Assembly: GCF_025024155.1 (NCBI RefSeq)
Contig: NW_026251718.1
Span: 491,001 to 555,000, forward strand
Length of the DNA: 64,000 nt
Source of the DNA: Gamsiella multidivaricata
Taxonomy: Eukaryota; Mortierellomycota; Mortierellomycetes; Mortierellales; Mortierellaceae
Reading direction: 5' to 3'
This document shows positions 630-40,024 of this stretch, piece by piece. How positions within the stretch are numbered: the stretch's first letter is position 1; every line of letters begins with the position of its first letter. Position numbers and translations under genes: made by a program. The notes beneath the pieces are model-generated. The model ran no database searches. It was given only the letters and a program-made list of their open reading frames with translations, and had not been told where the DNA came from.

Positions 630-1165
630 GGCAGATCGGATGTGTCGTTTTGGGTGGAGGAGAAGAGAAGGATGGATGGAGGTGATGGAGGCGATGGAAG
701 AAAGAGCCAAGGAGGTTGGGTTGCGGAAAACAAGGTTGTGAGCAATGGCACCCAATCAGATTGCGCCAGTGAAATGCTTCTATCTCACATTCATTTAAAG
801 AATTCATCAATTACAGAGGGCGATCGACCTAGATTTTGTCTGTATGGCAACGCGCTTGGAAAGCTGTGTTCGCAACGGTGATCGAGTCTGCGATGGTACC
901 CTCCCTCCCTTCCCTGCTCCCAATGATGATATTCGCTGGTGATAACCACCAATGGAGACAATTGAGGGTGCTATCATGGACAGAAAGGCTAATATCGTAA
1001 GCTCTCAGCTTTCAAGCAATCACCTTCTCTGCTTATAAACACGCTCTTGCACCCAGTTTTCTCTTCCGCTCTTCTCAGATTTCACTTCAAACACAAACTT
1101 ATCAATTTCGAGCTACTTCTTTTCGGTACATCGTATAAAGCTCATCAAGAACATATAACAACACC
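630..1165. other. Divergent intergenic region, SBH1 / Argonaute
   Basis: 536 bp between two divergent starts. It should hold both promoters. A TATA-like TTATAAAC lies near 1033, about 130 bp before the Argonaute ATG. No other gene is seen. Confidence 0.5.
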
Positions 1166-4100
1166 ATGGCGGCCTTGCAGATCACCGGTTTTGCCAAGCG
1201 CCCCGGCTTTGGAATACTTGGCAAGCCGATACAGGTTCGTTCGAATCACTTTGAGGTCACTCAGGTTCCTGACATTGTCATCCACCACTACGATGTAACG
1301 GTGACCCCGGACGTGCCACGGGCCCTAAACCGAAGGATCTACTCAGAATTCCTGAACCAATACCGTGAAACGGATCTTATGGACGTCCAGCCAGTCTATG
1401 ATGGCCGCAAGAACATGTTCGCGTCCAGGACCCTGCCATTCGGCGACAGTCGAACATTTGACGTAAGAGCGAGAGATTTCTGCTACATTTTGTTTTCTCC
1501 ACACGCGCGCTGCAGCAGATGGACAACGCATTGCGTTTCAAGTACGATGCTAACATTCTTATTTACTTGCCTATCCTTCATTCTTTCTCTCTTTTCTTTC
1601 TTTTTTTTTTCTTCTGGGCAACTAAAAAGGTCACCCTCCCTGAGGATGTTGGCTCGAGACGCCAGCCTCAGATCTTCAAAATCAAGATTCGCAAAGCAGC
1701 CCAGATCAACCTCGAAGAACTCCATCGCTTTCTGCTAGGCAAAACTCCAGTGACCAACAACATCCTCACATCGATCATGGCTCTCGACCAGGTCATTCGG
1801 CACAAGCCCTCGATGCTCTATGTGACCGTCGGCCGCGCGTTTTATACGCCTGCATCGAGACAGACCCTTGCAGGCCCACTTGAGGCATGGAGAGGATACT
1901 ATCAATCGGTGCGTCCTGGGCTTGGGAGAATGCTGATCAACGTCGACACCTCTGCAACGGCTTTCTATCAATCTGGCTCGTTGCTCGAGATCATTGTCAA
2001 GATCCTTGGTCTGCGAAGTCCGGGTACGATCTGTTATGACCTTCGGTTTTTTTGCATCGAATTTATTCAATGCTAAAGCGTTTCTTTTTTCTTTTTTTTT
2101 CCCCCTTCTCTCTTTAACAATATCCAAAAGACGACCTTCGCCGCACCAGCCAACCAGTGAACTGGATTAAGGTCGAGAGGATGATCAAAGGCCTTCGCAT
2201 CACGGTCGAGCACCGTCAGCGGTCTCCGCGCTCCGTCAAGATCCTTGGCCTGACCAAGAAGTCTGCCCGCGAAAGCACCTTCGTGATGTCCGTGGAGGCA
2301 CGAGGTTGCACTGGCGCTGCATCCCAAGTTGAGATCGATATCGCCACCTACTTCAAACAGACGTACAACATGACCCTCAATTACCCGATGCTGCCGTGCG
2401 TGACCGTTGGAAAGAGCGCGATGCTTCCTCTGGAGGTCTGCAAGGTCGTCGAGGGCCAGCGCTACGTCCGGAAGCTGGACGAACGTCAGACAGCCGATAT
2501 GATCAAGTTCACGTCCCAGGCGCCGCACATCCGAGCCAACGGAATCAAGGAGGGTATCAGGCTGCTCAACTACGACGACAATGAGTACCTCCAGGACTTT
2601 GGGATGAAGGTCTCGAACGAGATGGTCTCCATCAAGGCCCGTATCCTGCAGGCGCCTGTCATCCGCTACCATCACTCGTCGCGTGAAGCCAACGTTACCC
2701 CGCGCGAAGGTGTTTGGAACATGAAGGACAAGAAGATCGCCAAGGGCGCCGTGCTAGGTTCCTGGGGTGTCGTGGCGTTTGCTACCGAGCGCGATTTCCC
2801 GCGAGCGCAGATCAAGTACTTCCTGCGAGAACTTGCCGTCACTTGCATGGACACCGGTATGAACATCGTCAACATGGACCCACCTATCTCATATGCCAAC
2901 CCGCACAGCAACATCGAAGGTACCCTCAAGAGCGCCTGGATCCAAGCTGGCAACGCCGTCAAGTCAGTGCCGCAACTTCTGGTCTGCATCTTGCCCAACA
3001 CTGGCACGCCGCTGTATGCCGAGATCAAGCGGGTGACGGATACGATCCTGGGCCTGAGTTCGCAGTGTCTGCAGATCAAGCACATGCGTGAACCCAAGAA
3101 GCAATATTGTGCGAATGTCTGTCTCAAGATGAACGTTAAGTTGGGCGGTATGAACGCGCATCTGGCCCAGGGTATCCCCTTCATCATGGCCAAACCCACG
3201 ATCATCTTCGGCGGTGATGTCTCGCATCCACAGGCTGGAGATACGGTTCGACCATCGATCGCATCGCTTGTGGGCTCGATGGACAGTTATGCTGCTCGCT
3301 ATGCTGCCACCGTCCGCGTGCAGAGCGCGAGGACGGAGACGATTGCCGATCTCGCCGATATGGCCGTCGAGCTTCTCAAGACCTTTTACCAGAAGTAAGT
3401 CATTGTGCGTGCCCTCCCCATCTTCACACTGTTTTATTCTCTTCCTCTGCCTATCTGATCTCTACCTTTCTTCTCTACATCTTTTTTCATAGCTGCGGCA
3501 AAAAGCCCGAACGCATTCTGTTCTACCGCGACGGCGTCTCTGAAGGCCAGTTCGCCGACATTCTCAAAACCGAGATCGCAGCCATCCGTGCCGCCTGCAG
3601 CCGCCTTGACAAGGACTACATGCCCACCCTGACCTTCGTCGTTGTCCAGAAGCGCCACCACACTCGCTTCTTCCCCATGCAACGCGCCGAGGGCGACCGA
3701 CTCGGCAACTGCCATCCCGGCACCATCATCGATACCGAGATCGTCCATCCCTTCGAATTCGATTTCTACTTACAGTCCCATAGCGGTCTCTTGGGTACCT
3801 CCCGCCCTGCACATTACTATGTACTTCTGGACGACAACAAGTTTTCGCCGGACGAACTTCAGGATGTGACCTACAAGCTTTGTTACCTGTTTGCGCGATG
3901 CACTCGATCCGTGTCCGTGGTTCCGCCGGCGTATTATGCCCATATAGTCGCAGCACGAGCGAGGTTTCATGCGAAAGAGGATCATTTCTTGGACACGGCA
4001 TCGTCTGCTAGTTCAGAGACAAGCGTTGGAGATACGGGCTCGTACATGAGCATCCACCGACATATTCAGAAAGGTAAATGATTCTTCACAATGTTTTTTT

Positions 4101-8163: not shown

Positions 8164-9419
8164 GATGGATAGATGATCGAGGTCAGGGTCGGTACGGGCG
8201 TTGGGTTGTCGAAGTGGATGTAGACCGTTGGAGGAGCAAGTGGGTTGATGCGATCGGTTTCTCCTGAAATAAAGCGAGCAGTCCTCTCGTGCTCCTGAGG
8301 CACGGTTCTATGTTTGTATGGGTGATGTATGAGATGAGGAGGTATTTGGGGGAAAGAGGACTGGCGTGGTGGATGAGCGGGAAAGGAACGATTCTCGGAG
8401 GCGAGAAAGTGGGGATTGATGATGAGAGAGGGAGAGAGATCGGGGATGATGATAGGAGGGAGCTGAGATGATGGAGAGTGGAGATGCAGTGGAGTTGAGA
8501 GCACAGGCGGGGGACTATGGCAATAATTGACCGATTGAGTATGTTTCAAACCGCAAGTGGAGAAAGCGAGACAGGCCAGGGGTAAATTGTTCGAGCCTCT
8601 GCACAGCAAGCGCATGCACTCAGCCAGCGAACAAGAAAAAACCACGCGTACGAGGACCGCATGGACTCATCCACACACCACTGCAACATCGCGTCCCTCC
8701 TATATGGAGGCGGCTACGGCCAGAGGTCCGTGGCTCTTTCATGTCTACGCGTGTATGAAAACGCGTAGAAGGACTTTCAGGGCCAACTAAACCTAGTCCA
8801 CAGCAGAAACATGTATTGGCAGCCTACAGGGCATCAGCCAAAGTACATGTATGAGAGTGGGTTTTGGGAGCTAGAGGTTTTTAGGGTTAATGTTATCATG
8901 CTAGGGTGGGGGTGGCGATGGCAAGTTGCGAGAGGAGCGACGGCATTTGTTCTTCCTCAAACGAGGCCGTGAGCAAGACTGCGACTGAGACACCAGCTGT
9001 CCTCCCTCCTCGGTTCGCAATCCGGCTTTCTTTTAATATCGGCACACGGACCAGTAGCGATCTTATCCAGGTCTCGTTTTGGATTCCCTTCTCGGGTCGG
9101 TGTCTGTCTCAACGTGCAGAGCCATGGCGAGGCGAAGCATAATTAAATCCCGGCAGGTCTCATGGACGCCCTGAATAATAATGAATACGCTTGGCATGGA
9201 TATTATCCCTGATTTTTCCCCCACAGTCAAGCCGAACTGCCACATGTGTTGACTATGCATGTTGTCCACTCGGCTTGTGAACTTTAATTAGATGGACAAT
9301 CCAAAGTGACAGTAGACTATAAGAAGGCCGATACATAAACCGGCGTCTTTTCTTCTTCTGTCCTTTTCAGTCTCATTCCTCTTTCTCAACCTCATTCATC
9401 CCATTCACTTCACTTCACA
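8164..9419. other. Divergent intergenic region, APL3 / SDR
   Basis: 1.26 kb with no supportable gene. Purine-rich stretches near 8330-8470 give shadow ORFs. A weak TATA-like ACTATAAG at about 9316 lies roughly 100 bp before the downstream ATG. Confidence 0.4.
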
Positions 9420-12652: not shown

Positions 12653-12845
12653 GGTGTTGTATGAGGGTATGCGGTTGGGTGAAAGTACGAAGGAGAAGGG
12701 AGCACATGCATGCAAAGAAATGCGTCTATGCTCCTGCGTAAGCGATCTGGTAGCAGTACATTTCAGGCGTAAACTACGTCATCGAAGTGCCATAGTTGCA
12801 CGCCCTACACTGCCACCCAAACGCAGACCTATGTATTTACTTATA
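12653..12845. other. Rpn6 upstream region up to the transposon
   Basis: 193 bp between the Rpn6 ATG and the transposon's TA duplication. An ACGTCA half-site lies near 12776 and a GGTGGCAG motif (minus strand, near 12811) resembles the yeast proteasome control element GGTGGCAAA, but the match is incomplete. Confidence 0.3.
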
Positions 12846-12987
12846 CAGTCAATCTCCCCTTACTGTCACGATCATGACAGTTAGCCAAGATTCAAAGGAA
12901 TCGCGCGATGTCACTGGTCAATAGCCGTTTTAATTCAAAATTTTTATTTTATCCTCCTTAGTCATGTGAGGGATCTAACCTGTGTAT
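12846..12987 (+). repeat. Left terminal inverted repeat of the pogo element
   Basis: 142 bp matching the reverse complement of 15522-15663 with a single difference noticed (C at 12914 against T in the mate). It contains an internal small palindrome CTGTCACGATCATGACAG. Confidence 0.93.
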
Positions 12988-13266
12988 TTTGAATTGAATG
13001 TTGGGATATTTCTTCCTGATGCTTACCTCCTCTTCCTCGAGCATGCGCTCCTCCTCCATCCTCTCACGCTCTCTGCTGTTATAGTCCTTTACAAATCCAG
13101 ACTTTGCGATCCCTATTGCAGGGCTGACTAGCTTCTCTGCAGCAACATCTATAGCGTGTCGCAGGTCTTTATTCCCATCGCCTTGCAGAACTTCCGCTGC
13201 CCGTGATAAAATATCTATTCGCTCATCCTCGCTTTTCTCCTCGCTCCAAGTCTCATCCTCATTATA

Positions 13267-15508
13267 CTAAAGGAATTCCGGTTCCGAGATGTCGGAAGAA
13301 CGCAGATCATCCGTAGGCCATGCATAGAATTGGTGCTTGGTTTGAAGAGTCCTTTGCGCCACGATCGATCCAGACGGTGCTACAATCGTTCCAGGGGCCA
13401 ATAAGATCGCTCCTTCTGTCAATACAAGCACGTCCGATGTCCTGAGCGTTGATGACGATGTAGTCAATCCGAGACGTGGTGCCTCTAGCAATTGGGATAA
13501 CGGACACGTTTCTAACGACTGTACGGCTGCTCCAGGTTGCCGCATACTTGTAGAGTCGTTTCCGTAGTCCTCATCATCCGTGTCATCCTCGTCAGGGAAG
13601 AGCTCGTCAAGCGGCACTGTTCTTGGTTCCATGGCAAAGCACTCCATAAAATCGCTGTTTTTCCTTCGTTGATGAATAACGTCGTTGAGGAAGGTAGACC
13701 CATCCAGAAGCGCGCTGAGCCTTGTGTAGTAGTCCCGTTCAGCGCTGGTATATGTTGCTGGGACAAGACTGCTGTTCTGAGTCGATTGACAGATTGCTGG
13801 TCCAAACGCGCCAGGGAAGCGTTGCTCTAATGTCATCCTCGGATATCTGTTCATCATGGAGGCACGGTCAGCGATGTCTTCGCGCGCATCCCTGATAGCT
13901 GCTTGCACATTTGCATCGATTTCGTCGCAGGTCCTCAGTTCCTTTTTCTGGTCATCGTTCAATATAGGGACGTGAGCAAAGCAATTCCTGATGGACTGCG
14001 GCTTGACCTCGCTCCAGGCTTGGGCGGCAAGCTGCCAGCCCTCAAAATTCGAGACCTTTGCCATGGCCACCCTGGATGCCTTAGACGAATTTGTTGCATC
14101 AACTGCCCTCGCGCCATTCTGCTCCACTTCCTCCTCTTCATTTCCATCCGACTCCACTTGTACTGTCTCTTCTGCAGCCCTGATATCCGCGTGCAAGCCA
14201 TTTTCATAAGCGCGGCTGGCAACATGGTGACGGTAGCGTCGCTTGAAGACCGCTATGATTCCGGCGTCCAGTGGCTGAGTGACAGAGGTAGAGTTCGCTG
14301 GCAACGCTTCCACCCTGATATTAGGGAAGTCCTGAGGTGACCGCATTGCCACTGTATGCGAGCCATGGTTGTCTACTAATAGGAGAATCTTCCTGTCAGG
14401 ATCCTTGGCTTCGATGTCGTGCTGTGTATGCTTCAGCCATGCTAAGAAAGCACCCCCGGTCATGTAGTCTGGGCGCCCCTTCCTTGACCGTTTCTTTTTC
14501 TTATCTTCGCCCTCCTCCCTCCAGCCGCTGCCTCATCCGTCCTGGCTATCCTGCTCTGGCTTCCATGGTAGCACGTCCACCTGGCTCCGTAAATGGGCAC
14601 CTACGCCAGTCTTGAACCCGATTGGAAGACTAGTGCCTAACAATATATAATCGCATCAGAACGCTATATGCATAAAGATCATGATGATGATGACAACAAG
14701 TTACAGAGTACATACTTAGAACAAATGGTTTCCTCTTATCTGTGCCAGTTGCATTCACGCAAAACAAGATAGACACGCGTGCGGAGACAGACTTGGTGCC
14801 GGATCGTCGATCGAAGTCCAGTGTCCATGGAGACATTGTTTGAAGGAAAAGACCGGTTTCATCGGCGTTATACACGTCGTCTAGTGTATACTCGGCAATG
14901 ATACTTTTGATCCGCTCAACGTCGCCTGCAATCGCGTCCATGTCCACCGAACCCGCCTCGCCCTCCATCTTATGATAATCCAGGTTCCATGCATTCTTGA
15001 AGCCTTCTACCCAGGAGCTGCCGAAAGCTGGACGCGGGAATGGCATAAAACCCATCCGGTTCCATAGAATCGTATAGACATCGTGCGCCAGCGCCTGTAA
15101 CAGGATAGTGTCCACTGGTATGCGTCGGGACCGAACGTCCTTGATCAAATCGACTAGGACCGTTTCAACAGCGTATAAAGGGCGCTTGACAACCCGGCAT
15201 CTTTTTTTGGCTAGCACTGGTTCCATCGCCTCTAAATTCTCTCTGTCCTCCATAAGCCGTCGAATGGTGTGAGTTGTCCAGCCATGGTTTCGCTCGTACT
15301 CTGCCTTTGGAGGATCGCAGCCAGCTCCAGCTCGATAGGCATCGCGATGGGCGAGCCATTGTTGGAGACGTTGTAATCTCTCTTCCACAGTTTTGCGGCC
15401 CCCTTCGCCTCCCTTGGACACCAGCGTCTTGCGTTTAGTCATAAGGAGCGAGAGGAATGTTGATGAGCGAGGGGAATGCTGATGTCTGTCCCATGCCATG
15501 TGGACCAA
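13267..15508 (-). pseudogene. Pogo/CENP-B-type DDE transposase, interrupted
   Basis: Transposase of the surrounding element. The first part (from 15508, or the likelier ATG at 15442) has a helix-turn-helix region (YAVETVLVDLIKDVRSRR), then the first catalytic Asp in DVYNADETGLFLQ. An intron fits between about 14725 and 14641. The second part has the second Asp in LLLVDNHGSHT and the third in TSVTQPLDAGIIAVF, the DDD arrangement of DDE_1/pogo enzymes. An in-frame TGA at 14535-14533 splits the gene between the first and second catalytic Asp (readable as a former CGA). After the TAG at 13269-13267 the same frame stays open for about 100 codons to near 12964, with an acidic, Arg/Glu-rich stretch, so that TAG may also be secondary. 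Probably inactive. Confidence 0.85.
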
Positions 15509-15521
15509 TGTTCATTTGCAT

Positions 15522-15663
15522 ATACACAGGTTAGATCCCTCACATGACTAAGGAGGATAAAATAAAAATTTTGAATTAAAACGGCTATTGACCAATGACA
15601 TCGCGCGATTCCTTTGAATCTTGGCTAACTGTCATGATCGTGACAGTAAGGGGAGATTGACTG
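15522..15663 (-). repeat. Right terminal inverted repeat of the pogo element
   Basis: Mate of the left repeat, ending GACTG directly before the TA duplication. Confidence 0.93.
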
Positions 15664-15709
15664 TATATACACACAAATTGGTCTGTCTAACTATTTGAAA
15701 AAAAAAAAA

Positions 15710-18700
15710 TTATGCCACTGGTCTCTTGCGCCGACCTGGCTCAGTCTCCTCGTCTTCTGGTGCCATCCGTTCGACGCGTGGTTGTTCCACCTCCGTCACA
15801 TCCAATCGTGCCACCATATACTCGACAGACCGACTACTTTCCTCCATTTCCCAAATGTAGTTTGCTTCCTTGTCGTATGGCTGCAAATAGTGAGGGCGCT
15901 GCTGGTGGAGAAGATGTCCTCGAATGACATTGGACATATTATGACCGGCCATGACATCTCGATGAATTTTTGCTCCACACGTCGGCGTCGGGCAGTAGAG
16001 TTGCCGGATGTCGACCTAACCCACAAACTCCTTGCAGACCGAACAGCGCTTGGATGTGTAATATTCATTGACACCCATGACAATGTAATCCAGCGATCGC
16101 GCCTAAATAAAACGATACCAGAGTAAAAAAAATTTTTAACCGTCGATCCTTGTATTGTCAGTGAAATGGAGGTTGTAAGCAAGCTCAAATACTTACCAGC
16201 TGCACAAAGTACGCGGAGAATGCTGTGTGAAGGGAGGACAACCGCGACGTTGAAGAAAACTCTCCGAGTCCGATACCGATGACCACCTTGTTATCCCTAT
16301 CCCTTTTCTTGCCAGGAGTTCCTCCGATCATCTCCAGAAGGCGTTCTGCGACCAGCTTGAATTCCCTGTCCCTGGCTCTTTTGGCATCCCATAGATGTTT
16401 CTTGAGGGCAACGTTGTTGTAAAACGTTTCGAGATCCGATTCCTTGACTTTTGACTGTTCAACATGGTTTGCGATTGACGCCTCTGGACCATGGAGTGCC
16501 GGCAAGTTGGTCTCCATCTGAGCAATCGACTCCTGGCCCTCGGCTGAACGTCTCTTCCTCTGTTCGAGCCATCTCCTATGCTTGAACATTGGCTGGTACA
16601 CCGCCTTCTGGCTGACTGCCAGGTTGTGGAATTTCATGGGAGGAATCTCGATTTCGGCAATACCTCCTTGCTCCTGTCCATCGGTGGCGGTCACTGATGC
16701 TGAGGAGGGTAAGAGGGCACTGGCTCCAACGACGAAGGCCTTTCCTAAATCGGTCCCCAAAATCTTGATATCAAGAGGGTCACACCCCCAAAGTCTCTCA
16801 ACGTCCTCCTTCGTCTTGACCACGTTTCGGATCTCCGTCAGGTACTGGTCTGTCCCACCCAGAGTCGATGTGAGCCTGTCCGGCAGCTTATCTGCATCAA
16901 GCCGTCGGTATTTCATGCAGTTGAGCTCGTTCAGTTTAAAGGCGAGCAGCTGGATCCGAAATCCGTCCGTCTTGATCGATTCTCGGAGAGCATAGCCCTT
17001 TCCCGAATACGAAACCTTGGGATTGAAATCCTTGTGCCGAATGTTGGAGATGTGAGCAGTTATATCGCCAATCGACATACGGTGCGCGGATCGTGACCAG
17101 TGCTTCTTTTTCCTCCTCTCTTCCTTTACAAATCCTCCAATGTCGGTCAAAAGCCTGTTGATTAACTCTCCTGGGTCGAGGTTCTTGAGCCACCCAACCA
17201 CGTCGTCTTGAGCAACGCGGCCAGGTTCTGGGACAGATTTGATGACAGTTGAATGGGCATAGAGCTGGAGCTGTTTCCGTAGCGTTTCGTCTTTCCAAAA
17301 GATCTTGACCAGATCATCCTCCGAGAGACTGACGAACTTGCTTCCACGGGGTGACATTGGTGATAGTCGCCAACTTCTTCCGATGGCCCTGTTCAGAATG
17401 ATAAAGTTCTCCGCTGGGGTCTTGTCTGGATCGACACGATCTGGGGTACTCTGGGGCAAGAGTCCATTCTTCTTCTGCTGCTGGATCTACAGCGGAAAAG
17501 AAGAGAAGAAAAAAGAAAAAATGTCAGGCACGTTTCTTGTAACCAGGGTCTTGAACCATTTAAATTGTTATTACCTTTTTGGAAAGATCAAAGGAACCGT
17601 TCTTGAAGTGCCTTCTGTACTCAGTTGCGAGTCGCTTCGCTGTGGACTGGAGAAAGACGGAGGGGTTGTTGTAAGATTCTGCAGGTAATGCGTGTAAATA
17701 AGAAATGGAGAAGATAATGAGAAAGTATTAGAGAGTTGGTTCTCAATAGGTCACATTACTGCCACAATTACAAGAGACAAACCTACCACTGCCAGTTTTC
17801 GGTGGCAAATAGTCTTTGGCTTTGCGTAAGAACAAGCACGCAGCCGCACCTGCACTCGCCTTCTTTTTTTCCTGAGGAGTGCTGGCCTTGTAGACGGTAA
17901 CCAGAAGCGACAGGAAGAATTCAACTGGAGAGTTCTTGTTTTCGTTGCTGGCCTCGGAGCCGTCCTCGTCGTCAGATGACTTATCTTCTGGGTTCGGGGT
18001 GGTGCCTTTTTTAGCCGCGGCGATTTCCTGGACCGAGAAGTGAGGAGTCAAGTAGCTGAGAATGGTTCTGTCGTCCTCGTCAAGGTGATCGACTGACAGG
18101 CTTTCTAGGTACTGACCAATAACCTGTTGGCACGCACGTTTCGATTTCGAAGCCAGGTTAGAGATATCAGAGAGACAGGTGGTCACAGCGTGCCGAAGCT
18201 TGTCCTGTAGATCCTCGTCGTATGGAACCTCCTTCTTTATTGCTCGAGACGTATTCGCCTTCAAAATTCCAATGTCCAAGGTTCGAAGAGGGTGCTCTGT
18301 CTGCATCGCTCTGATCAGTTGAATCTTGGTCATCTCATCCGCTGCAAGTTGATCCTTTTTGGGCGTAGACTTTTTTTTCTTTTTCGGTGGCGGATTGGTC
18401 GCGCCGACGTTGGTACTTGTGCTGGGGCCCGCCTCGGTACTAGTGCTGGTGCTTATGGTACTGCTGGGATTGTTGGTTGACTTGGTATTCTCTTTTGGAG
18501 CCTTCCAGACGTACTGCTTGAATATGTCGGGCTTCTCGTGCTGGATGAGACGTGATCGAGTTTTAATCGCATAGCGTTCCCGATACTTGTACTGTCTTCC
18601 CGAGCTGTGCAGAGGCGGTAACTGACTCGGAGGACGATCAACAGTGGAGTATCGAATGAAATTTGTTGTTCGCTCTTCTTCTTGAAGACCAGGGACGGAT
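15710..18700 (-). pseudogene. Fanzor-like (TnpB/Cas12f-type) RuvC nuclease, C-terminal part of an XPG-Fanzor composite
   Basis: Exons 18700-17787, about 17680-17578, about 17487-16197 and 16102-15710 join in frame. The first encodes a linker with a Lys-rich patch (PPPKKKKKSTPKK, a possible nuclear signal) and acidic segments. The long third exon holds the nuclease: RuvC-I Asp in KILGTDLGKAFVVGASAL and a RuvC-II-like VVIGIGLGEFSSTS. The last exon encodes GVNEYYTSKRCSVCKEF, a second Cys pair in LYCPTPTCGAKIH, and the RuvC-III Asp in HRDVMAGHNMSNVI. This order (RuvC-I, RuvC-II, four-Cys ribbon, RDxxAxxN) is the IS605 OrfB/TnpB C-terminus; in a eukaryote with introns it is Fanzor-like. A TAG at 16018-16016, between the two Cys pairs, removes RuvC-III, so the protein is broken. 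Family call from motifs only; no guide RNA was identified. Confidence 0.8.
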
Positions 18701-18781
18701 CTGGGCATCCATCAACAACTGTTAAAAAAAAGATCCTTTTTTTTTGCCGTCAAGAAACCTGAATTTGTTCATTATCATAAC

Positions 18782-19883
18782 GTGGGCCTATATCTTGATG
18801 TTTGTCGGCTAATCTTGAGATGCAGGCGAATGTCTGCAACCCTTTGCGTCATCTCCTGTAGCTCGTTAATGGGATCCTGAATGTGAGGTAGAGTAAGAGT
18901 CGTACACTGCTGTACGGTAAAGATCCGAATAGCCGAGCCAAATAGTCTCTCCGTCGGGTGCCTGCTAGATATAATAGTGTGTACCAAGTAGGCCTGAACA
19001 AGCTCCTGAACACTCGCAGCCGTCGACGGAACTGAACAAAAGAAAAATATAAAAGGTGAGATGGGGATGAACAAGGCAATGAAAACAAGGGAGAATACAT
19101 AGTCTATTTCGGCTTACCGTCCTTTTCCAGAGCCAAAATAATCATGAAATTTGTCTTGACACCGAGCTTGTGGATCCCCTTGCCGTAGTCGTTCTGGGTA
19201 ACGACTCCAAGGGTAGTCAATCCTGCTCTCGAGAGCTGAAGGTGGCGTAACAGTTCCGGGACATTATAGACGAGGTACCGGTTTCGGCCAAAGGGTCTCC
19301 AGATTGTGGTGATGTGCTGTAGATAAGCGAGTCACTATCACGGGTGATGACAATATCCTGTTGCTGGCAAATGGACCCAATGCAGGTATCTGCTTCCGAA
19401 CGGCATCTGCAGACATTCCAGCCATTTGTGACAAGATACTGGACAAGTACTTGGCGGAGATCATGATTGAAATAGAAGGAGTCGACAATGGCCTTGTTGA
19501 CAGACTTGAATTGCTGTTTCCGTAGTTTTCTGTTGTTCTCGAGGGTCTCTTCCATGTTGGTCAAGAGCTTGTTGGCCTTGGAAAGGGCTTTTGTGCGTTT
19601 TGATTGACGTTCTTCGTTGGTGGCGTTCTTCTCAGCAGGAGAAGGTCCGTCCATGTGCAGAATCGTCGTTGCCTTGGGGAACTGACAGGCGATCAAATGT
19701 CGTTCGAAGTTGATACATGCGACTGTCGTGTCAGGGTAAAGGAAACAGCGGCGAATGACTGAAAAGAAAGAGCCGAGAATGTCTGTGATAAAGAGTGTTT
19801 GGTGAAGGGGCGGTAGGGAATGCTTTGAGGAGGGCAATGTATCCTTGTTCTTTGATAAACTGCCAAAGTTTCAGCACCCCCAT
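18782..19883 (-). pseudogene. XPG/FEN1-like nuclease, N-terminal part of the composite gene, frameshifted
   Basis: Begins MGVLKLWQFIKEQGY, the XPG N-region start, then ITDILGSFFSVIRR and ILHMDGPSPAEKNA (VDG-like), a Lys/Arg-rich helix, an XPG I-region-like CRSEADTCIGSICQQQDIVI and TRDSDSLIY, and a helix-three-turn-helix-like segment LTTLGVVTQNDYGKGIHKLG. Keeping this protein requires two one-base frame changes, near 19838 (after KEQGY) and near 19308 (between SLIYSTS and TIWRP), with no room for introns. An intron at about 19114-19025 joins on to PSTAASVQELVQAYL. A further GTTATG-AG intron (18781-18701) keeps frame into the next exon, so this and the Fanzor-like part were probably one gene of over 1,000 residues. 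Flap/PIN-type nuclease fold inferred from motifs. Confidence 0.72.
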
Positions 19884-20270
19884 GACGAGGGATATGTGGA
19901 TAATAGTGGCAATGGGAAAGAGACAGTAGAGGGAGGATGTAATGCTTTTTTTCCTTCCACGCGGGTATTTATTAGGGAGCGAAAGGTGGTTTGCGAAGAC
20001 GATACGAGAGACACTGAAGGTCCTAATTGCCATCCTCCAAAAAAACTTATTTCCGTCCAAAGAGTCCAGCCAATCAGGAGGCTTACGCGACCTAAGTGAC
20101 GTCACAGCTGAAATCAGTGAGGTGCCTTACGCTATCTCTGCCTTTGCATGCGCGTTCGCTTTCACAGTTAACATACCCTCAGCACCAGTACCTACATACT
20201 CACTCTTCCTCCATTTGCTTCCTACTCAACCACTTTCTATACGAAACCACAGTCCAGACCAACATAAGCT
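19884..20270. other. Divergent upstream region of RPN7
   Basis: 387 bp between the XPG-like start and Rpn7. A CCAAT box lies at about 20071 and a palindromic CRE at 20097. Nothing else recognised. Confidence 0.4.
20097..20104. promoter_or_regulatory. Palindromic CRE/ATF site TGACGTCA
   Basis: Perfect TGACGTCA 167 bp upstream of the Rpn7 ATG, the binding site of CREB/ATF-type bZIP factors. Stress control of proteasome genes through it is plausible but inferred. Confidence 0.5.
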
Positions 20271-39414: not shown

Positions 39415-40024
39415 ACTGTTGAAGGTGTATGTGTATTGAAAGGGCGAAGAAGCAAAAAATAAATTGTGCGAAGGGAATGAAAAGGGCCATATTTACTTTT
39501 TGTGCGAATGCACTGCCAGGGCTAAAAGGCTGTAAGAACGTCAAAAATAGAACGGCTACAAAAACGCGCCTTAGAAGCGCCTTCGCAAGACTGGCGTACA
39601 TCGTAGCCGCCATTGAGTGACCTTCACTCTCTATCGGTCCTCGCTCCGCACACCGCCTATGACTAGCCGTGCATTGTCATTTCCAAACAAGGAAGAGAAT
39701 CCTCTTCAACCTATACACACACGCATGCCAACTCACGAGCAAACAAGAAGGGCATAGGGAGGGCGTATGACCCTGGCATTACCCTTCCTGGATCGAATCC
39801 ACGGGCGTAGCTCCCTCCATACTGCCGACACTCACCTCACGAGATAGTGCTTCGCCTTGGTCAGTGGTAGCACGCCCTGCGCCTGTCTAAAGATAGCGAA
39901 CGGCGATAGGAATGACAAACAGTGCCCCATTTCATACGTGTGCCTACGGAAGGTGGTAACATCCACACTCTAGGATTCCTTTGGCGACTTCAACAGCCAA
40001 CCTGAAGATGACCAGAACGACGCG

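Follow-up and report, generated by a model that had tools for sequence, protein, structure and literature searches.

The window analysed here, a stretch of 64,000 nucleotides from the fungus Gamsiella multidivaricata, contains on its minus strand (19883–15710) a gene in which an XPG/FEN1-like nuclease is joined to a Fanzor-like nuclease, within the remnant of a Mutator-like transposable element. The gene consists of six exons and five GT-AG introns of 81–108 bases and is phase compatible throughout. The first-pass annotation, made from the letters alone, had read it as an XPG nuclease joined in phase to a TnpB/Fanzor-like half in one gene. That observation was confirmed and its interpretation supported, and the gene model and domain calls behind it were right in substance, as seen from the phase-compatible exons, a PF07282 match and a recognizable XPG region in another copy. 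Some corrections apply: the gene is a decayed copy, and its element reaches beyond it. The intron placed at 18781–18701 does lead to an in-phase join with the next exon, but its donor was misplaced. In the deposited models P0020 and P0001, exon 2 ends in ...SR and is spliced to a linker starting SVPG, which puts the intron-2 donor at 18793 and leaves 18781 as a mere fallback.

The window copy's XPG region did not reach the Pfam cut-offs. In locus L009 (contig C98), a 90 % identical copy, exon 1 is open and resembles yeast RAD2 in the PDB (E=7.6e-5), bearing out the reading of this exon as XPG N-region, I-region and H3TH-like segment; its XPG_I score was also below the cut-off (15.8 versus 24.9). 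A relative, P0015, exceeded the Pfam cut-offs for both XPG_I and TNB. Residues 20–307 of the structural model of another relative, P0012, matched FEN1/EXO1/XPG structures. In an alignment of 19 related proteins, partial models included, seven acidic columns, which we take to be the metal-binding residues labelled in FEN1, were invariant in those rows with a letter (4, 8, 12, 13, 13, 13 and 14 of 19). The second I-region acid was Asp instead of Glu in all rows. By predicted fold and by profile, the XPG half belongs to this nuclease family.

The Fanzor-like half was recognized in exon 6, which matched Cas12f1-like_TNB (PF07282) with E=2.1e-10 when the stop codon it contains was read as X. TNB was over the cut-off in seven of eight proteins scanned, the exception being P0002. 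A RuvC glutamate lies six residues ahead of the first CxxC in 15/15 rows with a letter. Passages of PMC10711439 describe this alternative glutamate ('Ealt'), six residues before the zinc motif, as the Fanzor arrangement. Together with the PF07282 match, it upholds the TnpB/Fanzor-like assignment of the C-terminal half. The RuvC D, E and D, like the FEN1-type acidic columns, were invariant where rows had letters, at 4 to 17 rows per column, with the out-of-frame tail of P0020 excluded from these counts. The zinc cysteines were also retained in the alignment. Structure prediction, proposed earlier as a check on this half, returned the expected relative: residues 830–1150 of the P0012 model matched the Fanzor SpuFz, which also aligned over nearly the full length of a second model, though at 8.1 Å. 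The RuvC/TNB half is thus predicted to have a Fanzor fold; its REC/WED part is diverged and was modelled at low confidence.

Homologues were found in other species. A first protein search returned 17 predicted proteins, all from mortierellaceous fungi, and a profile search returned eight, four of them new. The four species checked, including G. multidivaricata, belong to the Mortierellaceae. Predicted proteins from several genera cover both halves. Eight of the 19 aligned proteins hold the five I-region acidic sites and the three RuvC sites in one chain, one more has four of the five, and the remainder are partial models. These predicted proteins speak against the view that the halves are always separate genes, which had been offered as grounds for refuting the fusion. 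Two are complete at both ends: every checked site, from the N-terminal aspartate to RuvC-III, was present in P0012 (Linnemannia zychae) and P0005 (Entomortierella parvispora) only. P0020, which is the model deposited for L009, has XPG spliced to the linker and ends before the RuvC half because L009 is frameshifted in exon 3.

At least 109 TNB matches were counted in the genome. XPG lay 5' on the same strand within 1–7 kb in 49/109 TNB loci, the other arrangements occurring 3, 2 and 4 times. Adding 14 XPG places that a second query had located raised the count to 55/109 versus 3, 4 and 4. This one-sided spacing excludes chance pairing. Twenty loci, chosen mainly for matches to both halves, were extracted, and 17 of these hold all five query pieces in order (L017 has four, L011 the 5' pieces only and L012 the 3' pieces only); many of the 20 carry frameshifts or stops. 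The in-phase two-nuclease architecture is therefore recurrent.

Nonsynonymous (dN) and synonymous (dS) divergence was compared between copies. For the RuvC exon of the window against L009, dN/dS was 0.21 at dS 0.48, and further pairs, stop-bearing copies included, gave 0.16 to 0.70 in RuvC and 0.31 to 0.57 in XPG. Two exon-1 pieces had dN of 0.017 and 0.015 at dS of 0.080 and 0.069. From these ratios and the invariant catalytic columns, both nucleases look to have been maintained. The copies are also mosaic. The dS of the window from L009 was 0.02–0.08 in the XPG and linker exons (19883–17787) and 0.48 in the RuvC exon (17486–16197), and L023 likewise combines halves of differing affinity.

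The vehicle of the fusion gene is a Mutator-like element (MULE). Joined exon pieces of L028 matched MULE at 27.7 bits (cut-off 27.6) and SWIM at 24.5 bits (cut-off 19.6), in a gene divergent from the fusion gene. The C-terminal transposase piece matched 60 places in the genome, and the transposase lay head to head upstream of 20/109 TNB loci (other arrangements 2, 4 and 1). One copy, L018, could be followed end to end, from a left terminal inverted repeat (TIR) at 996, through transposase pieces on the opposite strand and the fusion gene, to the right end at 8735, and is flanked by a perfect 9-bp duplication, GCTTGGATG. Among 17 loci, a left TIR could be identified for L013, L018, L020 and L027, and part of one for the window. 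The duplication was perfect in L018 alone, with an A-run match in L020 and none in L013 and L027; the remaining left ends were truncated, beyond the extracted stretch or without a duplication. A duplication read by eye for L013, ATGACAAA, lies inside the left TIR of that copy and was not counted.

The right end was considered as a candidate source of a guide RNA. The last 67–76 bases before it form a hairpin, with z-scores of −4.1 in L009, −4.3 in the window and −4.9 in L018, which fall into two element groups, and of −2.6 in L015 and −2.5 in L019, in a third group. Three left ends do not fold (z 0.4, 1.0 and −0.2). Four near-identical right ends keep 98 % of their pairs, with one two-sided change, and Rfam gave no match in five loci.

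The window copy itself is dead, owing to exon-1 frameshifts, a lost splice donor, a nonsense codon, a pogo-like insertion and a shortened left end (Table 1). Relative to L009, exon 1 has two frameshifts. The intron-2 donor at 18793 is mutated, and the in-frame TAG lies inside the zinc ribbon, where L009 has a sense codon. The transposase gene carried by other copies is absent. An RPN7 gene on the opposite strand begins approximately 180 bases beyond the left end. The insertion, which disrupts the 3' region of the element, matched DDE_1 (71.9 bits) and, under the cut-off, HTH_Tnp_Tc5 (19.9 bits); the uninterrupted site is visible in L009 and L012. It entered at a TA in an upstream right-end hairpin, and a similar pogo-like element disrupts copy L033. 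A recoded stop or programmed readthrough, suggested by a single TAG in many copies, was rejected because the TAG of L028 serves as the 3' splice site for the final intron and that of the window lies in the ribbon at a position where L009 has a sense codon.

Table 1. Features of the element remnant in the window (TIR, terminal inverted repeat)
Feature	Positions	Strand	Description
Whole element remnant	12750–20088	−	Similarity to L009, L012 and other copies ends at these points
Left end	near 20088		Cut off, keeping the inner part of the left TIR alone (partial left-TIR match)
Exon 1	19118–19883	−	XPG N-region, I-region and H3TH-like segment; open in L009, frameshifted twice in the window copy
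Exon 2	18782–19031	−	End of XPG half; donor of deposited models at 18793, mutated in the window
Exon 3	17787–18700	−	Linker with Lys-rich run and start of Fanzor-like half
Exon 4	17575–17678	−	Fanzor-like half
Exon 5	16197–17486	−	REC/WED-like part and RuvC-I; aspartate codon 16751–16749, motif GTDLGKAF; alignment sites
Exon 6	15710–16102	−	RuvC-II glutamate 'Ealt' 16066–16064, TNB zinc ribbon, RuvC-III aspartate 15958–15956, nonsense codon 16018–16016
Pogo/Tc5-like DNA transposon	12846–15663	−	TIRs of ~180 bp, 92 % alike; TA on both sides; 2.8 kb
Right-end hairpin	12750–12816	−	Right TIR forms its 3' arm; may contribute to a guide-RNA scaffold; z −4.3 versus 200 shuffles
Right TIR	ends at 12750		

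The fusion was compared with known systems. With Fanzor1 of fungal transposons (SpuFz, 8gkh; PpFz, 9cf1) it has in common the RuvC and TNB fold, the Ealt glutamate and carriage by a transposon, and differs in its N-terminal XPG/FEN1 half, a RuvC-I that is mostly DLG rather than DPG and an adjoining MULE transposase gene. Fanzor1 has been described in Mucorales in MuDR-like elements without a transposase and with 9-bp duplications (passages of PMC3627910), the latter being shared with L018. The fold and the seven acidic positions are common to FEN1/XPG/EXO1/RAD2 nucleases, from which the fusion differs in being a transposon protein, in having Asp as second I-region acid and in implying no host repair partners. 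Typical of MULEs are the divergent gene with its MULE and SWIM domains, the TIRs and the perfect 9-bp duplication of L018; the two-nuclease cargo gene sets this element apart, as does the lack of a transposase in the window copy. The 'Fanzor flap endonuclease homologs (Fendons)' of animal viruses, mentioned in one sentence of a preprint, join the names of the two nucleases, with no domain evidence or demonstrated fusion in the passages concerned (PMC11071296). Term searches of an open-access literature subset gave no description of a joined XPG-Fanzor enzyme; an earlier mention is possible in the survey of eukaryotic TnpBs published in Science Advances in 2023. We regard a Fanzor-like nuclease that carries its own flap nuclease as a new variant on the known Fanzor theme. 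For the TnpB and Fanzor proteins studied to date, the current view is that they make the cut and the host does the repair. A flap-nuclease fusion arising in nature, in which both halves keep their catalytic residues from genus to genus, would show how evolution deals with the step after an RNA-guided cut, and could serve as a natural model of programmable cutting coupled to end processing. It would also make testable how RNA-guided nucleases help transposons persist.

Taken together, we propose that the window holds a decayed copy of a Mortierellaceae Mutator-like element encoding a two-nuclease protein, in which cutting is guided by RNA from the right end and the XPG half trims the products, and assign this whole statement a probability of roughly 0.5. 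Its parts differ in strength. The architecture and the nature of the element are almost certain, the Fanzor-like half is probably RNA-guided, and for action of the XPG half on the Fanzor cut the odds are about even. In the proposed mechanism, transcription of the right end would continue into flanking DNA and yield a guide RNA, which would lead the Fanzor-like half to cut a matching unoccupied site on the sister chromatid, on the homologue or where the element has been excised. The FEN1/XPG half, being tethered, would then trim flaps or branched DNA at the cut, and repair would copy the element back in. The Lys-rich run of the exon 3 linker is possibly a nuclear localization signal. More tentatively, and with the odds somewhat against it, an OMEGA-type RNA-guided nuclease that acquired a flap/branch nuclease in the same polypeptide may have become a two-nuclease, RNA-programmed homing machine that steers the repair of its own cuts and spreads Mutator-like transposons in Mortierellaceae, where this machine would have split into several diverged subfamilies.

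Several observations count against the proposal. XPG partners were not detected for 54/109 TNB matches; of four such loci examined, those on C12 and C62 reach contig ends, that on C131 is pogo-disrupted and that on C32 is without its 5' part. The linker is without visible constraint, as its dN of 0.025 compares with a dS of 0.020. RuvC-I is DLG in 14/17 rows and DPG in 1/17, unlike that of Fanzors, which is 'near exclusively' DPG in passages of PMC10711439, and for this reason the protein is named Fanzor-like rather than Fanzor. The structural models were of low confidence overall (pLDDT, predicted local distance difference test, 57 and 53). As for the guide, the hairpins of a fourth group, the L013 type (L013, L020, L021 and L026), alone reached z of only −1.2 to −2.0. 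When 150-base right ends were folded, 12 of 15 loci had z above −2 against mononucleotide shuffles, with L009, L012 and L018 alone standing out. Pair counts on the four near-identical right ends were equalled by 383/500 shuffles, i.e. no excess of covariation. On the z-scores, the 150-base folds and this covariation result, the hairpin is clear in two element groups and suggestive in others.

The strongest alternative is that the XPG half serves the MULE transposase, trimming Mutator-like excision or insertion intermediates, and that the fusion merely co-delivers two accessory functions. The head-to-head pairing of the two genes in 20/109 loci would fit this, but the XPG is fused to the Fanzor-like half and not to the transposase, and 89/109 TNB loci have no head-to-head MULE match, though many copies are partial; we consider it unlikely. 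It is less probable still that guide RNA use has been lost. The right-end hairpin would then serve the transposase only as a DNA structure at the terminus, and the protein would bind DNA or take part in repair on behalf of the element. Consistent with such a loss, the 3' arm of the hairpin is the TIR, the hairpin is weak in L013-type copies, and the REC/WED part is diverged and poorly modelled. Against it, the RuvC D-E-D and the zinc cysteines have been retained, the left ends that have TIRs show no folding and SpuFz aligns nearly full length to the second model, at 8.1 Å. Finally, most gene models are automatic and P0020 ends before the RuvC half (at the L009 exon 3 frameshift), but two tandem genes merged by gene finders and translated separately are highly improbable given that all introns keep phase, the linker is shared, order and spacing recur across loci and models from several genera span both halves.

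Loci L031 and L032 (contigs C126 and C108) represent diverged subfamilies; their XPG-like and TNB pieces follow the same order, and RuvC-I has DPG. Pieces of the L032 type had no match among predicted proteins and none in the PDB, the L009 RuvC exon alone had no PDB match, and the phage records searched gave no match. The 5'-truncated L012 (contig C32, near 39624–40001) has an open frame of 1808 residues around its RuvC match. In L010 (contig C1, 404–1260), another element has a window-type XPG exon in reverse orientation inside its transposase region; this exon is in frame with SWIM-like sequence, and the arrangement represents a nested or chimeric copy. Elsewhere in the window, an Argonaute gene with PAZ, Mid and Piwi domains is located at 1139–4081.

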